From the NCBI GenBank assembly GCA_001819435.1, contig MHMT01000004.1, positions 1 to 33,263 of the forward strand: a DNA stretch of 33,263 nt, read 5' to 3'. The notes under the pieces are model-generated. The model did no database searches. It was not told the origin of the DNA and saw nothing but the letters and a program-made list of their open reading frames with translations. Positions 1,946 to 32,486 of this stretch are shown one piece after another. Origin of the DNA: Candidatus Portnoybacteria bacterium RBG_13_40_8. Lineage in GTDB: Bacteria > Patescibacteriota > Minisyncoccia > RBG-13-40-8-A. A program made the translations under genes and the position numbers. Every line of letters begins with the position of its first letter. Position 1 is the first letter of the stretch.

Positions 1946-4357
1946 ATGGACTATAATCCGCAAAAAATAGAGAGCAAATGGCAGAAATACTGGGAGAAAC
2001 TTGGCTTGGATAGGGCCAAGAACTTTGACAAAAGAAAGAAGCAATACATCTTGGTTGAATTTCCGTACCCCTCTGGAGACGGTTTACATATTGGTCAAGT
2101 TCGTTCTTATGCCGCCCTAGACGCAGTTTGCAGAAAAAAAAGAATGGAAGGTTATAATGTTTTGTATCCGATGGGATGGGATGCCTTTGGATTACCAACC
2201 GAGAATTATGCCATCAAAACGGGAATACATCCGATAGAGGCAACCAAAAAGAATACTGATAATTTCAGAAGGCAATTAAAAATGATGGGACTTTCTTTTG
2301 ACTGGTCTCGGGAAATAAATACCACTGATCCTGAATATTACAAATGGACCCAGTGGATATTTTTGAAAATGTTTGAAAAAGGACTGGCATATCAGTCCGA
2401 AATGCCGATAAACTGGTGTTCGGGCTGTAAAATTGGCTTAGCAAATGAAGAAGTAATTGGCGGAAAATGCGAGCGTTGCGGAGCAGAAACCGAAAAAAAA
2501 CGACAGAAGCAATGGATGCTGAAAATTACCGCTTACGCCGATAGATTAATTGATGATTTGAAAAAAGTTGATTATTCGGAAAGAATCAAGACTCAACAGA
2601 TAAATTGGATTGGCAAAAGCGAAGGAACAACAATAAAATTTAAAATTGTGGATGAATTTATCGAAGTATTTACCACCAGAATTGATACGATATTTGGAGT
2701 TACGGCGCTTGTGCTTGCGCCCGAACATTCGTTAATTGAAAATTTAAAATTAAAAATTGAAAATTGGAATGAAGTCCAGAATTATATCAAAAATGCCAAG
2801 AAAAAAAGCGAGCTGGAAAGAACTGATTTGGAAAAGGAAAAAACCGGAATTGAATTAAAAGGAGTTTATGCGATTAATTTTTTAAATAACGAAAAAATTC
2901 CGGTTTGGGTCGGCGATTATGTGATTGCCGCTTATGGCGGGGGAGCAGTAATGGTTGTGCCGGCTCACGATAAAAGAGATTATGAATTCGCCCAAAAGTA
3001 TGGTTTAGAAATTCGCGAAGTCGTATCTGGAGGCGATATTTCCAAGGAAGCGTTTGTTGATTACGGAACATTGGTTAATTCGGGGCAGTTTAACGGATTA
3101 GAATCAGAAGAGGCAATTAAAAAAATCACTGAATGGATTGATAAAAATAAATTAGGCAGAAAGCAAATTAATTATCATCTTCACGATTGGATATTTTCCC
3201 GTCAGCATTATTGGGGTGAACCAATTCCGATTATTCATTGCGAAAAATGCGGAATAGTTCCAGTGCCGGAAAAAGATTTGCCAGTAAAGTTGCCTTATGT
3301 TAAGAAATACAAGCCAACAAATACCGGCGAATCTCCGTTGGCAGCAATTAAAGAATGGGTTAATGTTAAATGTCCGAAATGCGGCGGTCCAGCAAAGAGA
3401 GAAACCGATACTATGCCCAATTGGGCCGGCTCTAACTGGTACTATATCCGCTATTGCGATCCGAAAAACGATAAGAAAATTGCCGACCCAAAAAAACTGA
3501 AATACTGGATGCCGGTTGATTGGTATAATGGGGGAATGGAACATACCACTCTTCATCTTTTGTATTCAAGATTTATTTATAAGTTTTTATACGACATTAA
3601 GGCTGTTCCAGCTTTCGAACCTTATGCCAAGCGTCGTTCTCACGGCATAGTTTTGGGCGTCGATGGTAGGAAAATGAGTAAATCATTCGGCAATGTAGTA
3701 AATCCTGATGAGGTGGTGAAAAAATACGGTGCGGACAGCTTACGGCTTTATGAAATGTTTATGGGTCCCTATGAAGAAGCAATAAATTGGAGCACCGAAG
3801 GATTGGAAGGTTGCTGGCGTTTTTTGAAAAGAATCTGGGTTTTATTTAATCAAGAGAATAAAATCAGTAAAATAACCACCAAAAATCTGGTTCAGAAATT
3901 ACATTACACAATTAAAAAGATTGGTGATGATTTGGAAAATATGAAATTCAATACTGCCGTGGCCAGCATGATGGAATTGGTAAATTTATGGTCAGAAAAA
4001 AGCAATGTTCTGTCCAAAAAAGACGCGGAAAATTTTCTGAAAATTTTGGCCCCGTTTTGTCCGTATATTTGCGAAGAATTATTTCAAAAACTCAAAACTC
4101 AAAACTCAAAACTCAAAACTATTTTTCTCGAAAAATGGCCGGAATATAATGAGAAATTAATTAAGAAAGAGACAATTGAACTGGTAATTCAGGTTAATGG
4201 CAAAGTGCGCGATAAAATCGAAGTTAGTGCGGAAATTTCCAAAGAAGAAGCGGAAAAACTTGCTTTATCAACCGATAAAATTAAAAAATGGCTCGGAGAT
4301 AACAAGCCAAAAGTGGTAATTTTTGTAAAAGGAAAATTAATTAACATTGTTATATGA
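1946..4357 (+). CDS. leuS: Leucyl-tRNA synthetase
   Basis: FPYPSGDGLHIGQVRSY, editing domain, KMSKSFGNVVNPDEV. ATG 1946 (MDYNPQKIESKWQKYW) is the likely start rather than the ORF-track start at 1892. Confidence 0.95.
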   Translation: MDYNPQKIESKWQKYWEKLGLDRAKNFDKRKKQYILVEFPYPSGDGLHIGQVRSYAALDAVCRKKRMEGYNVLYPMGWDAFGLPTENYAIKTGIHPIEATKKNTDNFRRQLKMMGLSFDWSREINTTDPEYYKWTQWIFLKMFEKGLAYQSEMPINWCSGCKIGLANEEVIGGKCERCGAETEKKRQKQWMLKITAYADRLIDDLKKVDYSERIKTQQINWIGKSEGTTIKFKIVDEFIEVFTTRIDTIFGVTALVLAPEHSLIENLKLKIENWNEVQNYIKNAKKKSELERTDLEKEKTGIELKGVYAINFLNNEKIPVWVGDYVIAAYGGGAVMVVPAHDKRDYEFAQKYGLEIREVVSGGDISKEAFVDYGTLVNSGQFNGLESEEAIKKITEWIDKNKLGRKQINYHLHDWIFSRQHYWGEPIPIIHCEKCGIVPVPEKDLPVKLPYVKKYKPTNTGESPLAAIKEWVNVKCPKCGGPAKRETDTMPNWAGSNWYYIRYCDPKNDKKIADPKKLKYWMPVDWYNGGMEHTTLHLLYSRFIYKFLYDIKAVPAFEPYAKRRSHGIVLGVDGRKMSKSFGNVVNPDEVVKKYGADSLRLYEMFMGPYEEAINWSTEGLEGCWRFLKRIWVLFNQENKISKITTKNLVQKLHYTIKKIGDDLENMKFNTAVASMMELVNLWSEKSNVLSKKDAENFLKILAPFCPYICEELFQKLKTQNSKLKTIFLEKWPEYNEKLIKKETIELVIQVNGKVRDKIEVSAEISKEEAEKLALSTDKIKKWLGDNKPKVVIFVKGKLINIVI
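4087..4120 (+). repeat. Heptamer tandem repeat (AAAACTC)x4 plus partial copy inside leuS
   Basis: Four exact copies plus AAAACT; encodes LKTQNSKLKT. Confidence 0.95.
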
Positions 4358-20720: not shown

Positions 20721-20771
20721 ATATCAAAATCAACCAAGTTCTGAATCGTTCCGCTAAACGGGCTTACCATA

Positions 20772-20800
20772 TTGACAGGATAGTGATTATATGCTATCTT
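20772..20800 (+). promoter_or_regulatory. Promoter of small-gene cassette 3
   Basis: TTGACA-N17-TATCTT with TGC extended -10; near-identical to the promoter at 19863. Confidence 0.8.
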
Positions 20801-20838
20801 GTTATTAGTTTAAGAATTTAAGAAAAAGGAGGTTTAGG

Positions 20839-21159
20839 ATGATTAAACAAGAATTGATAAGGGAGATCAGGGAAAAAATCGAAGGGGATTGCGCGATTTT
20901 TATGTTTTTGGCGATAGTATCTTTCGTGCTCTGGTGGATTTACTTGCTCCTGTTTTTCTTCACGGGCAAAGCAAAAGCCCTTGCCTTGTCCATCTGGGTA
21001 CCGTTGATTAATTTCCCCTTGAATGTTCTTTACTGTTTTGCGGTGATCTTGGTTGCGACGATTATCTTGGTTGTTGTTTTTGCTCCTCTGGTCTGGATTA
21101 TGCAAAAAAGAGAGAAAAGATTTCTCGGGGAACTGGAAGAAATCGAACAATTTTATTAA
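20839..21159 (+). CDS. Small membrane protein, 106 aa, ~2-3 TM helices
   Basis: AAAAAGGAGG SD; hydrophobic blocks FMFLAIVSFVLWWIYLLLFFF and VLYCFAVILVATIILVVVFAPLVWI. Confidence 0.7.
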   Translation: MIKQELIREIREKIEGDCAIFMFLAIVSFVLWWIYLLLFFFTGKAKALALSIWVPLINFPLNVLYCFAVILVATIILVVVFAPLVWIMQKREKRFLGELEEIEQFY

Positions 21160-21197
21160 GAGAAAAATCGCAGCACAATTTTCATCGCCATCCCTCC

Positions 21198-21233
21198 GGA
21201 GGTTCTACCAAAAAGGTTCAACCTCCTTTTTTT
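21198..21233 (+). terminator. Intrinsic terminator
   Basis: GGAGGTT(21198-21204)/AACCTCC(21220-21226) then TTTTTTT. Confidence 0.8.
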
Positions 21234-21234
21234 A

Positions 21235-21264
21235 TTGACACAATATCATTCTTTATGCTATTCT
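21235..21264 (+). promoter_or_regulatory. Promoter of small-gene cassette 4
   Basis: TTGACA-N18-TATTCT with TGC before -10. Confidence 0.75.
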
Positions 21265-21303
21265 TTCTTTAGTTTTTAAATTTGAATAAAGAAGGAGGTT
21301 TAA

Positions 21304-21609
21304 ATGCCGATAACTAAAATAGAAGAAAAGGAAAGTCCAAACGAGACAAAATGCTGGCTCAAAGTGATAGTCATAGGAAAAGAGGGAGAAGACGAGAAAA
21401 AAGTTTTTGCAGAAGGAAAAAGAATTCGCTGGGTTTTGCGAAGATTAGAAAAAGCATTAGGATTTAAGGCAAACAACGGTTTACCCGTAAAAGCCAATCC
21501 GCCCTTTTATTTTTTTATCGTAGAATGTCTGTCGAAAAACAAAGACAGAACCAAGGAGACGATAAGAGAAATCGTCGAAGCCAGCGGAGAAACGCATTAC
21601 GCACATTAG
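21304..21609 (+). CDS. Hypothetical small protein, 101 aa
   Basis: GAAGGAGG SD; MPITKIEEKESPNETKCWLKVIVIGKEGEDEKKVFAEGKRIRWVLRRLEK... Confidence 0.7.
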   Translation: MPITKIEEKESPNETKCWLKVIVIGKEGEDEKKVFAEGKRIRWVLRRLEKALGFKANNGLPVKANPPFYFFIVECLSKNKDRTKETIREIVEASGETHYAH

Positions 21610-21616
21610 TTCATTT

Positions 21617-21645
21617 GAGGGGTCGCCAAAACGATCCCTCTTTTT
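21617..21645 (+). terminator. Intrinsic terminator
   Basis: GAGGGGTCG-CCAAAA-CGATCCCTC then TTTTT. Confidence 0.85.
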
Positions 21646-21661
21646 GTTTTGCCCAAATTAT

Positions 21662-21690
21662 TTGACAAAAACTATATTATCTGCTAAATT
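21662..21690 (+). promoter_or_regulatory. Promoter of pilin-like gene
   Basis: TTGACA-N17-TAAATT with TGC extended -10. Confidence 0.75.
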
Positions 21691-21738
21691 TTATTTTCAC
21701 CTTAAAAAGTGAATAAATCAATCTAAAAGGAGGAAAAA

Positions 21739-22260
21739 GTGAAAAAAGGTTTTACCTTGATTGAGTTGTTGATTGTTATCGCGATTATCGGCATTCTTGC
21801 GTCGATTATTATTCCCAATGCCACTAATGCCATTCAAAAAGCCAAACAGAAGGCTACAATGAGCGATATGGTGACCATTACCACGGCTTGTGCATCATAC
21901 GCTATGGGAAGCGGAAGAATGCCCAAACAAGAAGGCGAAGTCGAGCCGGACAGTGAATTCATGCAAGCCATTGCTCCTTATATTTCAGCATTTCAACCAA
22001 ACGATAAGTGGGGCCACAAATATTTGATCTACACGGGCTCGGCAATAGCTGGTCAGTATGGCATTGAAGAAGATGATTTAACCGGAGAGGATTTTTTGAT
22101 TATTTCTTTGGGTCGAGATGGACAAATGGAAAATTTTCTTTATGATCCCAAAAATCCCGATTCCGGATTTTTCTCGGGAGAGAACATAGAAAGTCTGAAG
22201 AACGATCTCATCAGATTAAATAACAGCTGGATTCGCGCGCCGATATCGGCAACAAAGTAG
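21739..22260 (+). CDS. Type IV pilin / GspG-like major pseudopilin
   Basis: GTG start after AAAGGAGG; prepilin motif MKKG|FTLIELLIVIAIIGILASIIIPN. Confidence 0.92.
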   Translation: MKKGFTLIELLIVIAIIGILASIIIPNATNAIQKAKQKATMSDMVTITTACASYAMGSGRMPKQEGEVEPDSEFMQAIAPYISAFQPNDKWGHKYLIYTGSAIAGQYGIEEDDLTGEDFLIISLGRDGQMENFLYDPKNPDSGFFSGENIESLKNDLIRLNNSWIRAPISATK

Positions 22261-22279
22261 ATTTTTTTCAAGAATTTAT

Positions 22280-22314
22280 GGGCGAATTATCAAAAAGATA
22301 ATTCGCCCTCTTTA
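22280..22314 (+). terminator. Intrinsic terminator
   Basis: GGGCGAATTATC-AAAAA-GATAATTCGCCC then TCTTT. Confidence 0.85.
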
Positions 22315-22316
22315 TT

Positions 22317-22345
22317 TTGACAAATTTTCAATGCGGGTGTATATT
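22317..22345 (+). promoter_or_regulatory. Promoter of small-gene cassette 6
   Basis: TTGACA-N17-TATATT. Confidence 0.75.
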
Positions 22346-22363
22346 CTTTAAAGAGGAGGAAAA

Positions 22364-22585
22364 ATGAAGAAAAAGTATTGTTCTTTAATTGTTTTTGGAG
22401 TAATTTTTATAATCTTAATCGGTGTTATCGGCGGCAGTTGTCTGATTGAGGGCGAGATTTGGTTTTTTGACGTGAACATAGTTGACGGAAAGATTAAAGT
22501 CGAGATTAAGAAAGTCGGAATCGGAGAGATTATAGAAAAAATTGGGCACTACCTCGAACTTATTGGTAGAGCCCATTTTTATTGA
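22364..22585 (+). CDS. Small secreted/membrane-anchored hypothetical protein, 73 aa
   Basis: AGAGGAGGAAAA-ATG; N-terminal hydrophobic segment with Cys; stop TGA lies in the next promoter's TTGACA. Confidence 0.65.
   Translation: MKKKYCSLIVFGVIFIILIGVIGGSCLIEGEIWFFDVNIVDGKIKVEIKKVGIGEIIEKIGHYLELIGRAHFY
22543..22580 (+). terminator. Intrinsic terminator inside the 3' end of the 73-aa ORF
   Basis: TGGGCACTACC/GGTAGAGCCCA then TTTTTATT. Confidence 0.7.
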
Positions 22586-22610
22586 CAAAACAATATTTTT
22601 CTGCTAAAAT
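22582..22610 (+). promoter_or_regulatory. Promoter of small-gene cassette 7
   Basis: TTGACA-N17-TAAAAT with TGC extended -10. Confidence 0.8.
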
Positions 22611-22656
22611 AGAATTAATCCTGAAAAGTCAGGAAATTACGCCTTGGAGGTTATCA

Positions 22657-23025
22657 GTGAGGAGAGTTTTTAAGGATTACGGTAGGTTCAATGGAAAGTG
22701 CGAGGAGATGACTTCGCTACGGGGTGTTTCCGGGACCGTGTTCCTGGAACCATTTGAAGAGATGTTCTACTTCAAAGATCAACCCGAAGCCAAAAAGCTC
22801 ACCGTGTCGGCTGCCGTGGGGAAAAGCGGTGGCGGAATTACTGACGAGGAACTCGTCATCGCAAAGGCCAAGCTTTTCAACTTTCTCAGGGTAGTTGCCC
22901 TGAACAAACAAGGTCCTGATGATGCCCAGGCTCATGTCCGGTGTCAAGTCAAACCCATTCTCTTTGCGGGAACTTCTCCAGCACTTTTCGTGGATCCAAA
23001 AACTCTTGTTCTCCGGCAATTTTAA
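22657..23025 (+). CDS. Hypothetical protein, 122 aa, GTG start
   Basis: TTGGAGGTTATCA-GTG; start revised from ORF-track 22582, which lies in the promoter; VRRVFKDYGRFNGKCEEMTSLRG... Confidence 0.65.
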   Translation: MRRVFKDYGRFNGKCEEMTSLRGVSGTVFLEPFEEMFYFKDQPEAKKLTVSAAVGKSGGGITDEELVIAKAKLFNFLRVVALNKQGPDDAQAHVRCQVKPILFAGTSPALFVDPKTLVLRQF

Positions 23026-23044
23026 AAAGGAGGGAAAAACAAAT

Positions 23045-23075
23045 GGGCGATGCTCAAAGAGCATCGCCCTCTTTT
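23045..23075 (+). terminator. Intrinsic terminator
   Basis: GGGCGATGCTC-AAA-GAGCATCGCCC then TCTTTTT. Confidence 0.9.
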
Positions 23076-23132
23076 TATTTGTGTTTTATTAATTTTTTGT
23101 GGTATGCTAAACTGTAATATGGGAGTAACATT

Positions 23133-23693
23133 ATGGCAAATTTAGAAATAATCGACAAAGAAAAAGAATTGCTTTCAAGGGTGGCCGCGGGCGACAGAGA
23201 TGCCTTTGGCCAGCTTTATGATTTTTATGCTCCAAAGATTTTTCGTTTTATCCGCTTGAAAGTTGGCTCGCAAGCTCTGGCCGAAGATCTTTCTTCGGAA
23301 TCGTTTTTAAGAATTTGGGAATATCTCAAAGAGCAGGAAAGAGAAATAGAAGAAAGCTTTCGAGGACTTTTATATAGAGTTGCCCGTAATTTAATCGTAG
23401 ATTATTACAAGAGAAAAAGTTCTCAAGAGATATTAATCGACGACGATTTTAAAGAATTTTTGGAGGGACACTTGATTGGCGATGATTTAAGGGTCAGTGA
23501 AGATGTCGAGGAAGTCCACCGGGCGTTAGTTAAAATAAAAGAAGAGTACCAAGACGTGATTATTTGGTATTATGTTGACGAGTTATCCGTACCGGAAATA
23601 GCCAAAATTATGGATAAATCACAGGGCGCAGTCCGCGTGTTAATTCATCGAGCTCTTAAGACATTAAAAGACCATTTAGAAGAGGTTGAATGA
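23133..23693 (+). CDS. ECF-type RNA polymerase sigma factor
   Basis: Region 2 (FGQLYDFYAPKIFRFIRLKVGSQALAEDLSSESFLRIWEYL) and region 4 (VIIWYYVDELSVPEIAKIMDKSQGAVRVLIHRALKTLK). Confidence 0.92.
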   Translation: MANLEIIDKEKELLSRVAAGDRDAFGQLYDFYAPKIFRFIRLKVGSQALAEDLSSESFLRIWEYLKEQEREIEESFRGLLYRVARNLIVDYYKRKSSQEILIDDDFKEFLEGHLIGDDLRVSEDVEEVHRALVKIKEEYQDVIIWYYVDELSVPEIAKIMDKSQGAVRVLIHRALKTLKDHLEEVE

Positions 23694-28593: not shown

Positions 28594-29976
28594 GTGGCGA
28601 GAAAACTTTTAATTTTAATATTATTTAGCTTATTATTTATCCCAATAAAAACTTGGGCTGTTGATATTATTGATGGAGACCTCATTCGCATTCAAGGAGA
28701 CCTTGATGTTTATATTGTCAAAATCCTTCCTTCGACTAGCTCAGGACAAGTGGCAGAAAAATATAAACGCCTGATTCTTAACTCGGAGATATTCAATCAA
28801 TACGGCCATTTGAAATGGGAAAATATCAAAACCGTAAGCCAAACCGAACTGAACGAATATGCTGTTTCTGACCTGGTTCGGGCAGTAAGTGATGATAAGG
28901 TTTATAAATTGTATCCTAACGGAGATATCGGCGAAAAAAGATGGGTAAAAACCGCTGATGATTTTTTGAATTTAGGCTTTAAATGGAATGCCATTTACGC
29001 TATCAATAACTTTGAAAGAGATTTTTATATTCTCGGCGAAAATTTAGTCGCAGTCAGCCCGCCAGAAACACCATCACAAGAGCCAGAAATTCCTTCCCGT
29101 GATCCAATCACAATCAATGTCCCAAATGATTATTCTACAATTCAAACAGCTATTAATGCAGCTATTGACGGTGATACGATTTCTGTAAAATCCGGTACCT
29201 ATGATGAAAACATTGTTCTTGATAAAAAGATAAAATTAATCGGGGAATTGAGCGGAAGCACAATTATTGACGGCAAAGGAAATGAAAATGCCTTAACCAT
29301 AAATAATGGTAAAGATATTTCCATTGAAAGATTTACCATTCAAAGCAAGGATAAATACGCGATTTACTGTCCCGGGAAAAATCAAACTTCGGCCGTATTT
29401 AAAAACCTGATTATCAAAGATTCCGGCTGGGGAATAGTAGCCGAGGAAAATTGCCAGCTTACGGTATTGAATGCTTTGATTTATAATAACAAAAATTCTG
29501 TCAATACGGATGGCGCAGGCATATTGATTAAAAACAACTTTTCTCAGAATATTGTTTCAGAAATAAGAAACAATACCATTGATGATAATTATCACGGTAT
29601 TTGGAGCGAAAACTCTAACTTAAAGGTGATGAATAATATCATCACCAACAATATCGGTGGAAAAGGAGCAAAGGGGAGCACCGGATTATATCACAGCGGA
29701 GACGGAAATTCGGACAATACCTACAATGATGTTTACGGAAATGGCTGGGATTTTGGCGGAGACGCTAAGGCCGGAGATGGTACTTTAATTGTTTATCCAA
29801 AATTTATTTGGCCATCACAGCGGGATTATCGTTTAAAAACCGGTAGTGATTATTCTTTTTGTATTGATGCTGGACACCCGGATTATACTTATAATGATGC
29901 AACTTATTCGAGCAATACCGTTCGAAACGATATGGGCGCTTACGGCGGACCAGACAACTTGGGGTGGACTCCGTAA
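28594..29976 (+). CDS. Secreted protein: surface module plus right-handed parallel beta-helix domain
   Basis: GTG start; signal peptide; DVYIVK...YKRLILNSEIFNQYGHLKWENIKTVS module; VPNDYSTIQTAINAAIDGDTISVKSGTYDENIVLDKKIKLIGE beta-helix start. Confidence 0.85.
   Translation: MARKLLILILFSLLFIPIKTWAVDIIDGDLIRIQGDLDVYIVKILPSTSSGQVAEKYKRLILNSEIFNQYGHLKWENIKTVSQTELNEYAVSDLVRAVSDDKVYKLYPNGDIGEKRWVKTADDFLNLGFKWNAIYAINNFERDFYILGENLVAVSPPETPSQEPEIPSRDPITINVPNDYSTIQTAINAAIDGDTISVKSGTYDENIVLDKKIKLIGELSGSTIIDGKGNENALTINNGKDISIERFTIQSKDKYAIYCPGKNQTSAVFKNLIIKDSGWGIVAEENCQLTVLNALIYNNKNSVNTDGAGILIKNNFSQNIVSEIRNNTIDDNYHGIWSENSNLKVMNNIITNNIGGKGAKGSTGLYHSGDGNSDNTYNDVYGNGWDFGGDAKAGDGTLIVYPKFIWPSQRDYRLKTGSDYSFCIDAGHPDYTYNDATYSSNTVRNDMGAYGGPDNLGWTP
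28729..28747 (+). repeat. Short dispersed repeat CCTTCGACTAGCTCAGGAC inside coding sequence
   Basis: Encodes PSTSSGQ, an insertion relative to the homologous module in the upstream gene. Confidence 0.6.
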
Positions 29977-30016
29977 GGGTTGATTTTTCTCTGAAATTCT
30001 GCTATTTTTAGGGTAG

Positions 30017-31714
30017 ATGAATATCAAGAAGAAAATACTTTTTCTTGTGACACAGTCTGAGTTTGGTGGAGCTCAGCGTTTTATTTATACCCTCATAGAG
30101 GGTATGCGTAGATACACGCAGATTGAACCCCGAGCTAAGCTCGGGGATACGCAGATAAATGCAGATAAAGGCGATTTTTTATATTCAGATGTTACTTATA
30201 AAATTAGAGGTGCTTGTTTTAAAATTTGGAAAGAATTCAGAGGGGCTTTTAAAGAGAAGGTAATTGAAAGGGCTCTGGCAAAAGAATTACAGAATCAAGG
30301 ATTAACAGTTGATACCCAGAAACAGATTTCAGTGCTTTACGATAATGAGAAGATAGGGAAATATGTTCCCGATATGGTGGTTGATGATAGGGTTTTGGTT
30401 GAATTAAAAAGCAAAACTTTTTTAACAAAGGAAGACGAGAAACAATTTTGGTTATATTTAAAGGGATCGAATTATCGATTGGGTCTATTGATCAACTTTG
30501 GTAAAAAACTAGAAATTAAACGTAAAATTTACGATACGGCTCGTGAACAATCTGCGTCAATCAGCGTATTGCCGAAGGCACAAAATCAGCGTGTATCAGC
30601 GAACTATGAAGTAGTTGTTGCTGCGGGACCGGAAGGCGATAATGAAAACGGGCTTTTGTCTGCTTTGGAAAAAACAGGGATTAATGTTATTCGTCTTAAA
30701 TATATGAGACGTACTATTAATCCTTTTTTTGATACTCTGGGCTTTTTTGAGATTAAAAGAATATTAAAAAAACAAAAACCTGATATTGTTTTTTTATGTA
30801 GCACCAAGGCCGGAGCCATAGGTTCGCTCGCCGCTTACCTATATCGCAGATTCACGCATCAGCGTAAATCCGCGTATTCGAGCGAAGCGAGACAAAATCA
30901 GCGTGTATCAGCGCGACCGAAGGTCATATATAGAATCGGCGGCTGGACATTTAATGATCCCTGGCCGAATTGGAAAAAGAAGTTATATATTTTGATAGAG
31001 AAATATACCGCTAAATTTAAAGATTATATTGTTAATAATGCCAGTTCAGACAAAAAGCAAGCAATAGAATTAGGCATAAAACCGAAAAAGGAATTAACAT
31101 TAATCCATAATGGAATAGATGTCTCTCGACTCGAAAAAGAATTTTTAATAAGAGAAAAGGCAAGAAAAGAATTAAATCTTAATCAATCTGATTTTGTTGT
31201 TGGGGCAATCGCTAACTTTTATCCACCAAAGGGATTAAAGTATTTGATAGAAGCTGCCAGCCTGTTATCGGGTAAAGATATTAAATTTATAATTATTGGT
31301 GATGGCGAAGAAAGAACCCTATTAGAAAAAGTAATCGAGGAGAAAAATTTAAAAAATAATTTTATTTTGAAAGGCGTTATTCCCGAAGCATATAGGTATT
31401 TAAAGGCATTTGATATATTTGTTTTGCCGTCAGTTAAAGAAGGATTTCCTTGGACTATTTTGGAAGCGATGTCTGCAGAAGTCCCGGTTATAGCTACAAA
31501 AGTCGGCGCCGTCCCAGAAGTGATAAGGAATAACAAAAATGGAATTTTAATAGAACCAGAAAATCCGCAACAGATATCAGGAGCGATTGAAATGTTAATA
31601 GATGACAAAGGTTTGAAAGAAATTTTAGCGAAAGAAGGCAAAAAAATAGTAACAGAAGAATTCAATTTAAAAACAATGGTAAAAAAATATGAAGACTTGT
31701 TTTTTATCAATTGA
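30017..31714 (+). CDS. GT4-family glycosyltransferase interrupted in frame by two insertions
   Basis: ILFLVTQSEFGGAQRFIYTLIEGM ... YEVVVAAGPEG ... KVIYRIGGWTF ... VVGAIANFYPPKGLKYLIEAASLL ... LPSVKEGFPWTILEAMSAEVPVIATKVGAVPEVI; extra GxxExxY-like domain after residue ~32. Confidence 0.88.
   Translation: MNIKKKILFLVTQSEFGGAQRFIYTLIEGMRRYTQIEPRAKLGDTQINADKGDFLYSDVTYKIRGACFKIWKEFRGAFKEKVIERALAKELQNQGLTVDTQKQISVLYDNEKIGKYVPDMVVDDRVLVELKSKTFLTKEDEKQFWLYLKGSNYRLGLLINFGKKLEIKRKIYDTAREQSASISVLPKAQNQRVSANYEVVVAAGPEGDNENGLLSALEKTGINVIRLKYMRRTINPFFDTLGFFEIKRILKKQKPDIVFLCSTKAGAIGSLAAYLYRRFTHQRKSAYSSEARQNQRVSARPKVIYRIGGWTFNDPWPNWKKKLYILIEKYTAKFKDYIVNNASSDKKQAIELGIKPKKELTLIHNGIDVSRLEKEFLIREKARKELNLNQSDFVVGAIANFYPPKGLKYLIEAASLLSGKDIKFIIIGDGEERTLLEKVIEEKNLKNNFILKGVIPEAYRYLKAFDIFVLPSVKEGFPWTILEAMSAEVPVIATKVGAVPEVIRNNKNGILIEPENPQQISGAIEMLIDDKGLKEILAKEGKKIVTEEFNLKTMVKKYEDLFFIN
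30107..30601 (+). mobile_element. Putative in-frame GxxExxY/PD-(D/E)XK palindromic element inside glycosyltransferase
   Basis: Outer inverted repeats CGTAGATACACGCAGATT(30107-30124)/AATCAGCGTGTATCAGCG(30584-30601), 15/18; inner inverted repeats 30147-30167/30549-30569, 16/21; palindrome CCCCGAGCTAAGCTCGGGG(30128-30146); internal domain with PDMVVDDRVLVELK. Confidence 0.72.
30845..30913 (+). mobile_element. Mini/deletion derivative of the same element, also in frame
   Basis: 22-nt identity ACAAAATCAGCGTGTATCAGCG at 30580-30601 and 30892-30913; preceding ATCAGCGTAAATCCGCGTATT parallels ATCTGCGTCAATCAGCGTATT of the large element; both encode QNQRVSA. Confidence 0.7.
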
Positions 31715-32486
31715 TGTAGAAAAAAGAGAAAATCAGGAAAACCAGCCGTTCGAGGGGGTGGAAAAATTGGATAATATTTTGAATATTTTCAAAAAGCATC
31801 ATCTCAAATCCACCCTTTTTGTCACTGGCGAAGTTCTGGAAAAGTATCCGGAATTGGTTAAGAAATGGACAAATGAACACGAAATCGGCTGTCATGGCTA
31901 TTATCATATTCCATTAGATAAATTAGGTTTAATCGAGAGAGAAAAACAGGTAGTAGATTTTATTGGTTTATATAAAAACAATTTTAACAGGTCACCAAAA
32001 GGGTTCAGGGCTCCTCGGAATATTATCGATAATGAGCAATTTCCTATTTTAGAAAAATACGGATTTCTATACGATGCCAGCGTTTTCCCTCGTTATCCCT
32101 GGCGACTTCATAGATATGAAGGATATCGGGGCCGAGCGCCAATTAACCCCTATTTTCTTGACAGAAAAAATTACAAGAAAAAAGGAGAAGCAAATATTCT
32201 AGAAATACCAGAAAGCCCGGTTTTTCTTAATATTCCCTTGGTAGGAACATGGTTAAGAAAATTAGGCGTAGGAATATTTAAAAAGCTGTTTTTATTTAAA
32301 AAGCCAAGATTTATTAGCTTTTCAATGCATTCTTGGGATGGAGTAAAATTCAAAGGGAAAAGTTCTAAAAATAGCGGAGAAAAATATTTAAAACAATTGG
32401 ATAAAATACTTGGCCATTTAAATAAAATTGGCTATGAATTCAAAACCGGCGAGAAAATTTATGAAGAATTTTCAGAAAATAAATAG
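31689..32486 (+). CDS. Polysaccharide deacetylase (NodB homology)
   Basis: CFLSIDVEKRE, STLFVTGEVLEKYPELV, HEIGCHGYYHIPL, GFRAPRNIID. Confidence 0.9.
   Translation: MKTCFLSIDVEKRENQENQPFEGVEKLDNILNIFKKHHLKSTLFVTGEVLEKYPELVKKWTNEHEIGCHGYYHIPLDKLGLIEREKQVVDFIGLYKNNFNRSPKGFRAPRNIIDNEQFPILEKYGFLYDASVFPRYPWRLHRYEGYRGRAPINPYFLDRKNYKKKGEANILEIPESPVFLNIPLVGTWLRKLGVGIFKKLFLFKKPRFISFSMHSWDGVKFKGKSSKNSGEKYLKQLDKILGHLNKIGYEFKTGEKIYEEFSENK

Follow-up and report, generated by a model that had tools for sequence, protein, structure and literature searches.

A 495-nucleotide cassette lies in frame in a GT4-family glycosyltransferase gene of Candidatus Portnoybacteria bacterium RBG_13_40_8, and related cassettes were found in frame in other host genes, at protein loops and absent from relatives of the hosts. 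It probably represents (at a probability of about 0.6) an autonomous, frame-preserving mobile cassette composed of inverted 7-mer arrays and a PD-(D/E)XK nuclease of the GxxExxY family. The best reading of the data is that of a protein-coding palindromic element, comparable to Rickettsia palindromic elements (RPEs), which would carry a putative homing nuclease, be tolerated as a surface-loop insertion and remain unspliced. The cassette ends favor a single open reading phase, an ATG of its own is missing from most copies, and the relationships of LepA cassettes occupying one site contradict the phylogeny of their hosts; we infer mobility from evidence that is comparative throughout. The window, i.e., the whole stretch of 33,263 nucleotides analyzed (contig MHMT01000004.1), contained the following features.

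30017–31714, forward strand: ORF of the GT4-family glycosyltransferase, the host gene, 565 aa with two in-frame insertions.
30107–30601, forward strand: complete cassette, 495 nt (165 codons), divisible by three, no stop.
30107–30166, forward strand: left array, 7-mers at 30107–30113, 30117–30123, 30150–30156 and 30160–30166.
30128–30146: hairpin separating the two 7-mer pairs on the left side, CCCCGAGC-TAA-GCTCGGGG, DNA fold z = −4.4.
30191–30526, forward strand: GxxExxY/PDDEXK_3 nuclease domain, in which D...ExK and the motif Glu are intact.
30550–30601, forward strand: right array, inverted relative to the left one, 7-mers at 30550–30556, 30560–30566, 30585–30591 and 30595–30601.
30845–30913, forward strand: second insertion, without an ORF of its own, in frame, 69 nt (23 codons), same 7-mers.

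The host ORF had no stop along its entire length, and the profile search identified in it Glycos_transf_1 (E = 1e-40) as well as the GxxExxY domain in the N-terminal half. GT4 relatives aligned on either side of both insertions. The 495-nt insert was missing from all 13 aligned GT4 relatives, so the domain is not universal at this site, which is uninterrupted in the relatives: the junction FIYTLIEGM-[insert]-NYEVVVAAGPEGD corresponds to FIYTLLTNLNKDKYDILIAAGPEGD in an example relative, and at its C-terminal end the insert joins the host as ...NQRVSA-NYE. The boundaries that a sequence-only reading had given to the insert (~165 codons without a stop) proved exact to the base. Among the genomes compared, the GT4 site was occupied only once. 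The nuclease of the GT4 cassette formed a supported clade with seven copies located outside long host proteins (nearest identity 65%); since it groups with non-embedded copies, its insertion was a separate embedding event.

The cassette ends comprised eight 7-mers in four pairs, CGCAGAT on the left (forward) and ATCNGCG on the right (inverted), the members of a pair being spaced 10 bp apart; the arrays surround small hairpins. The left array was translated in frame as RRYTQI..DTQINAD and the right array as SASISV..NQRVSA. Separate detection of inverted repeats yielded arms of 22 nt (77%) and 14 nt (93%), and the nested inverted repeats with short palindromes described earlier correspond to these arrays. 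An 88%-identical copy of the left array was present within another gene of the same genome (G000:C12:25565–25625). The DNA folds of the right array and of the solo arrays, i.e., those lacking a nuclease ORF, were no better than those of shuffled sequences; thus, a stable hairpin is supported for the left array only. The second insertion in the same gene, at 30845–30913, which the sequence-only reading did not contain, consisted of a left-array remnant joined to a right array. A longer left-plus-right version, RRNTQIESRQVGNTQINAE-YQCESAYSEGDNPRVSA, occupied the same place in GT4 of genome G005 of the same family, and the insertion was missing from G002, G004 and G006. The shorter copy looks like a deletion derivative of the longer G005-type version.

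The insert matched TIGR04256 (E = 5e-30, 104.2 bits, cut-off 35) and PF13366 PDDEXK_3 (E = 6e-31, 107.7 bits, cut-off 22), scores far above the cut-offs, so that the GxxExxY-type identity proposed from the letters alone is borne out. The motif that gives the family its name is degenerate at its ends (AxxExxI) with the central Glu kept, and none of the catalytic residues (E, D, E and K) is lost, in agreement with the intact PD...ExK signature read earlier. E50, D89, K101, Y117 and R139 (insert numbering) were invariant in 55 relatives, and E99 nearly so. Comparison of embedded copies yielded dN values of 0.09–0.46, with dS mostly saturated, and dN/dS values of 0.06–0.21 where computable; as judged from the sequences, the nuclease domain is under purifying selection. 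The AlphaFold model of the insert had a confident PD-(D/E)XK core (pLDDT > 95), as the sequence-only reading led one to expect, with linkers of low confidence, and the model of the full GT4 protein was too poor outside the nuclease for positioning its domain on the host fold. Fold matches in the PDB were PD-(D/E)XK-type nucleases with weak scores, the best being LHK-Exo 3syy (E = 4.5e-4), with a Holliday junction resolvase and Cas4-like proteins also among them; T7 endonuclease I appeared in the profile search at a weak E = 0.018, which is a hint only. We know of no integrase activity for a nuclease of this type alone. Scanning with the insert revealed only five relatives in genome contigs and no viral relative in IMG/VR. 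In the open-licence literature, the GxxExxY family appeared as a gene label only, without a described function, and no description of its in-frame embedding, of the arrays or of same-site transfer was found there. The 7-mers also bordered several nuclease relatives that are not embedded in long host proteins, and several of these had ends in phase with the ORF. In two Magasanikbacteria loci (L066, L067), free-standing nuclease relatives were located directly upstream of an ORF whose beginning resembles methionyl-tRNA synthetase.

TIGR04256 matches were present in 105 of the 384 genomes of the class, and about 25 GxxExxY cassettes were in frame in long ORFs whose host protein was identified. 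The hosts were LepA (13 genomes) and RecG (8 genomes, with seven cassettes at one loop and one at another), as well as Ndh, transketolase, GatB and GT4; additional LepA cassettes were found in genomes outside the class but within the same phylum. All LepA cassettes shared one site, between GITIKxxPVRMxY and xILNLIDTPGH, where congeners without a cassette have a two-residue turn (empty sites in G129, G186, G197, G072 and G028) and which, from the translational GTPase fold, we take to be the turn of a beta-hairpin. In RecG, the cassettes mainly occupy the loop that joins DEQHRFGVxQR to the SMTATPIPRT motif. The cassette sites are permissive loops adjoining highly conserved motifs. It should be noted that the LepA turn carried unrelated short in-frame insertions in six other genomes (G075, G043, G087, G038, G024 and G052; L169, L171–L174, L176) and is therefore a generally insertion-tolerant site. 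The GatB cassette and one RecG cassette belonged to a distant GxxExxY clade and had different ends, which indicates that in-frame embedding arose repeatedly in the GxxExxY family. In these two cases, at the other RecG loop of G087 (L064/L129) and in GatB of G265 (L128), the flanking repeats were of the TTCGGAT and ATTCGAG types; apparently, these cassettes are separate families of one type of element. The cassettes in LepA, RecG, Ndh and transketolase, those with other ends in GatB and at the second RecG loop, the solo arrays in essential genes and the phylogenetic conflict described below go beyond the sequence-only reading.

In LepA, the cassettes of G272 and G046 were 85% identical, whereas their hosts shared only 52% identity; conversely, the sister hosts of G343 and G363 were 79% identical and their cassettes only 51%. 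Five LepA cassettes formed a clade with 99/99 support, and their hosts did not. AU tests rejected both the forcing of these five hosts together (p = 2.8e-68) and the holding together of the G343 and G363 cassettes (p = 1.2e-4). Mapped onto the LepA host tree, presence or absence of the insert changed at least eight times on starred branches. RecG followed the same trend (G214–G196: cassette 82%, host 55%). The conflict between cassette and host trees therefore indicates horizontal transfer of LepA cassettes into the same site; vertical inheritance was rejected by the identity contrasts and the AU tests. Slower evolution of the cassette could partly explain its high identity, but the reverse pattern in the G343–G363 pair counts against a uniform rate effect. 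Transfer into, and replacement at, an identical site is what homing predicts, and the incongruence suggests that, beyond mere random scatter, cassettes have entered one site in a homing-like manner. The combination of a shared site and incongruent transfer, used here to recognize a homing element in the broad sense, was found for the LepA and RecG cassettes and not for the GT4 cassette. Empty sites were too diverged from occupied ones to resolve a target-site duplication of the classical MITE/IS kind, and no transposase family was among the profile matches in the cassette.

The paired-repeat pattern of the cassette ends had 10 exact matches in the 690-kb genome of RBG_13_40_8, compared with 0 for the reversed control. 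They belonged to three solo arrays on contig C12, to the second insertion and, in the cassette itself, to the right array; its left array, with one base off per 7-mer pair, was detected with mismatches allowed. All three solo arrays were in frame within long ORFs, so that every well-formed array detected in RBG_13_40_8 is genic and in frame. One of the three lies in a PHP-domain-type protein, whose relatives without the array read AIKR[E/K]S[K/D]ELKL at this place. An orthologue of this protein in another genome (L281/L282, G001:C23, ~20725–23238) carried an intein-like insertion of ~400 aa (CLLPDSYLHV...HNC). In addition, in-frame tandem heptanucleotide arrays of AATTTCA, AAAATTC and AAAACTC, with ~4–5 copies each, were observed in the window at 714–744, 1483–1512 and 4087–4120, in genes of the MetG, TatD-like and LeuRS types; in other genomes (L173, L171), the LepA turn was filled by comparable short repeats.

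Across the class, 749 pattern matches were found in 384 genomes compared with a few dozen for the control, so that other loci with the unit or its ends, for which the sequence-only reading had looked to related genomes, do exist both with and without the nuclease. In the fetched loci, 52 of 95 clusters, including some cassette arrays and a few doubtful ones, were in frame within ORFs of at least 130 aa, which provides the count of intragenic copies that the earlier reading had called for; the calls for L260, L270, L271 and L190 had odd phases and may reflect spurious ORFs. According to the profile search, the hosts of solo arrays included GatB, LeuRS, RecG, EF-G, TopA, IleRS, ATP synthase alpha and beta, Mfd-like proteins, ThrS, PolX, DnaG, TsaD, IF-2 and GatA, and the arrays were mostly inside the matched family domain. 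Solo arrays occupy many essential genes. The right repeat (SQRESA type) was read in one phase in 23 of 30 cases and the left repeat (TQINAD type) in 33 of 52. In two loci (L115, L117), arrays were tandemly amplified inside proteins (SPQLSAS four times in LepA and a TRTNANN type in transketolase); the amplification in L115 proceeded in 21-nt steps, so the frame was kept. At least four pattern matches occurred in 32 of the 105 genomes with a GxxExxY gene and in 12 of the 279 without one (p = 2.5e-11, kinship ignored). No GxxExxY gene was detected in these 12 genomes, examples of array-rich genomes of this kind being G042 (32 matches), G050 (19) and G056 (16); either the gene was lost or missed, or the arrays moved otherwise. 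Some cassette genomes (G196, G343, G164 and G325) had zero pattern matches.

Of 23 cassettes, 18 lacked an in-frame ATG between the host sequence and the nuclease domain, and nine, the GT4 cassette included, had no ATG, GTG or TTG ahead of that domain. A simple scan revealed no promoter-like site on the coding strand of the cassette region. Consequently, read-through translation is the economical reading. The cassette would thus be translated into a flexibly linked domain whose presence the host protein tolerates, and no splicing would be required. The nuclease may cut empty alleles at or near a conserved target, or act on a branched structure formed by the palindromes, and recombination would then copy the cassette into the cut site, i.e., by homing. 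In addition, the repeat arrays may spread by themselves, mobilized in trans, and give rise to RPE-like solo insertions. The odds fall just short of even that these cassettes make up a distinct class of element, a non-splicing homing cassette at permissive turns whose nuclease would mobilize arrays in trans; such a class would provide the enzyme so far missing from the RPE-like way of life.

Several other explanations were considered. The palindromic arrays may themselves be the real mobile unit, RPE- or MITE-like and dependent on host recombination or an unlinked enzyme for their movement, with the GxxExxY gene as a passenger or repressor that became trapped between two arrays and is conserved for some other reason. 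This is unlikely, if worth serious attention. In its favor, solo arrays outnumber cassettes, some array-rich genomes lack a detected GxxExxY gene, and PD-(D/E)XK nucleases are not transposases on their own; against it stand the significant co-occurrence of arrays and GxxExxY genes noted above (kinship ignored), the strong conservation of catalytic residues within embedded copies and the in-frame position of distant-clade GxxExxY domains, with other flanks, in GatB and the second RecG loop. The patchy presence within genera, the functional unrelatedness of hosts such as GT4, Ndh and transketolase, and the conflict of cassette and host trees in both directions make it improbable that the nuclease is a domesticated domain, inserted long ago and kept for serving its host proteins (LepA, RecG, GT4), even though its apparent purifying selection and the prevalence of hosts that act on nucleic acids or in translation would suit such a role.

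The recurrence of in-frame insertion beside highly conserved motifs, together with a nuclease, recalls inteins and group I introns, and an element removed at the protein or RNA level was considered for this reason. It is very improbable: the intein reading was rejected, as no Hint or intein family was among the profile matches in the cassette, and the group I/II intron reading was rejected, as the Rfam scan of 29900–31800 contained no catalytic intron RNA family within E ≤ 1. Moreover, the sites are permissive loops or turns rather than catalytic residues, the ends show a preference for a single open phase, arrays that lack an ORF altogether are likewise in frame, and the intein-like insertion of a relative looks quite different (C...HN-C between IIPAH and YTPWF, L281). 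The named records in the data are metagenome-assembled genomes, which might suggest an artefact of assembly or gene modeling, or chance in-frame repeats in linkers; this is scarcely credible, given dozens of independent genomes and contigs, and was refuted by the clean empty sites in GT4 and LepA relatives and by pattern counts many-fold above the reversed control.

If the mobile-cassette reading is right, it would supply a testable enzyme for in-frame palindromic elements, explain one way in which loop domains are acquired by bacterial proteins and assign GxxExxY proteins a likely function. Selfish DNA within coding genes has been familiar since the discovery of RPEs, and homing nucleases usually accompany introns or inteins by which the insertion is removed; the cassette is apparently selfish as well. 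Two themes, in-frame palindromic DNA and a homing-type nuclease, would meet in genes such as lepA, recG, fusA, gatB and dnaG. The hosts are small, reduced genomes of ultra-small bacteria, whose named relatives are CPR-type bacteria, and the cassettes would have moved between distant lineages of them.

Both the profile scores and the catalytic residues place the inserted domain clearly within the GxxExxY family (TIGR04256/PF13366). As with intron and intein homing endonucleases, a nuclease recurs at one conserved position in distantly related hosts, and its distribution is patchy and incongruent with phylogeny; in CPR bacteria LAGLIDADG enzymes are known within rRNA insertions (PMC11270868). 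However, those endonucleases reside in self-splicing elements, whereas the cassette has no splicing module and probably stays in the protein, and its palindromic ends, unlike those elements, also occur alone. Inteins have a Hint splicing domain with Cys/Ser and a C-terminal HN followed by Cys/Ser/Thr; the cassette matched no such family and ends in ...NQRVSA. The REPIN/RAYT system likewise associates non-autonomous palindromic repeats with a linked nuclease-type gene (PMC3116915); RAYTs belong to the tyrosine (HUH) transposases and REPs lie mostly outside genes (PMC3116915), whereas the cassette enzyme is of the PD-(D/E)XK type and the arrays are often intragenic and in frame. RPEs share with the cassette palindromic DNA with terminal inverted repeats, in frame in unrelated conserved genes (PMC10969869, PMC2229807), and they are translated, apparently at tolerated positions, as is proposed here for the cassette. 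The comparison with RPEs made in the sequence-only reading was apt as regards behavior, the arrays being in frame in many unrelated genes. RPEs of 105–150 bp encode a short peptide only, and these reviews link no enzyme to them (PMC10969869, PMC2229807), whereas the present element has a 495-bp form with a nuclease ORF, same-site horizontal transfer and an unrelated lineage of hosts; the likeness is one of behavior.
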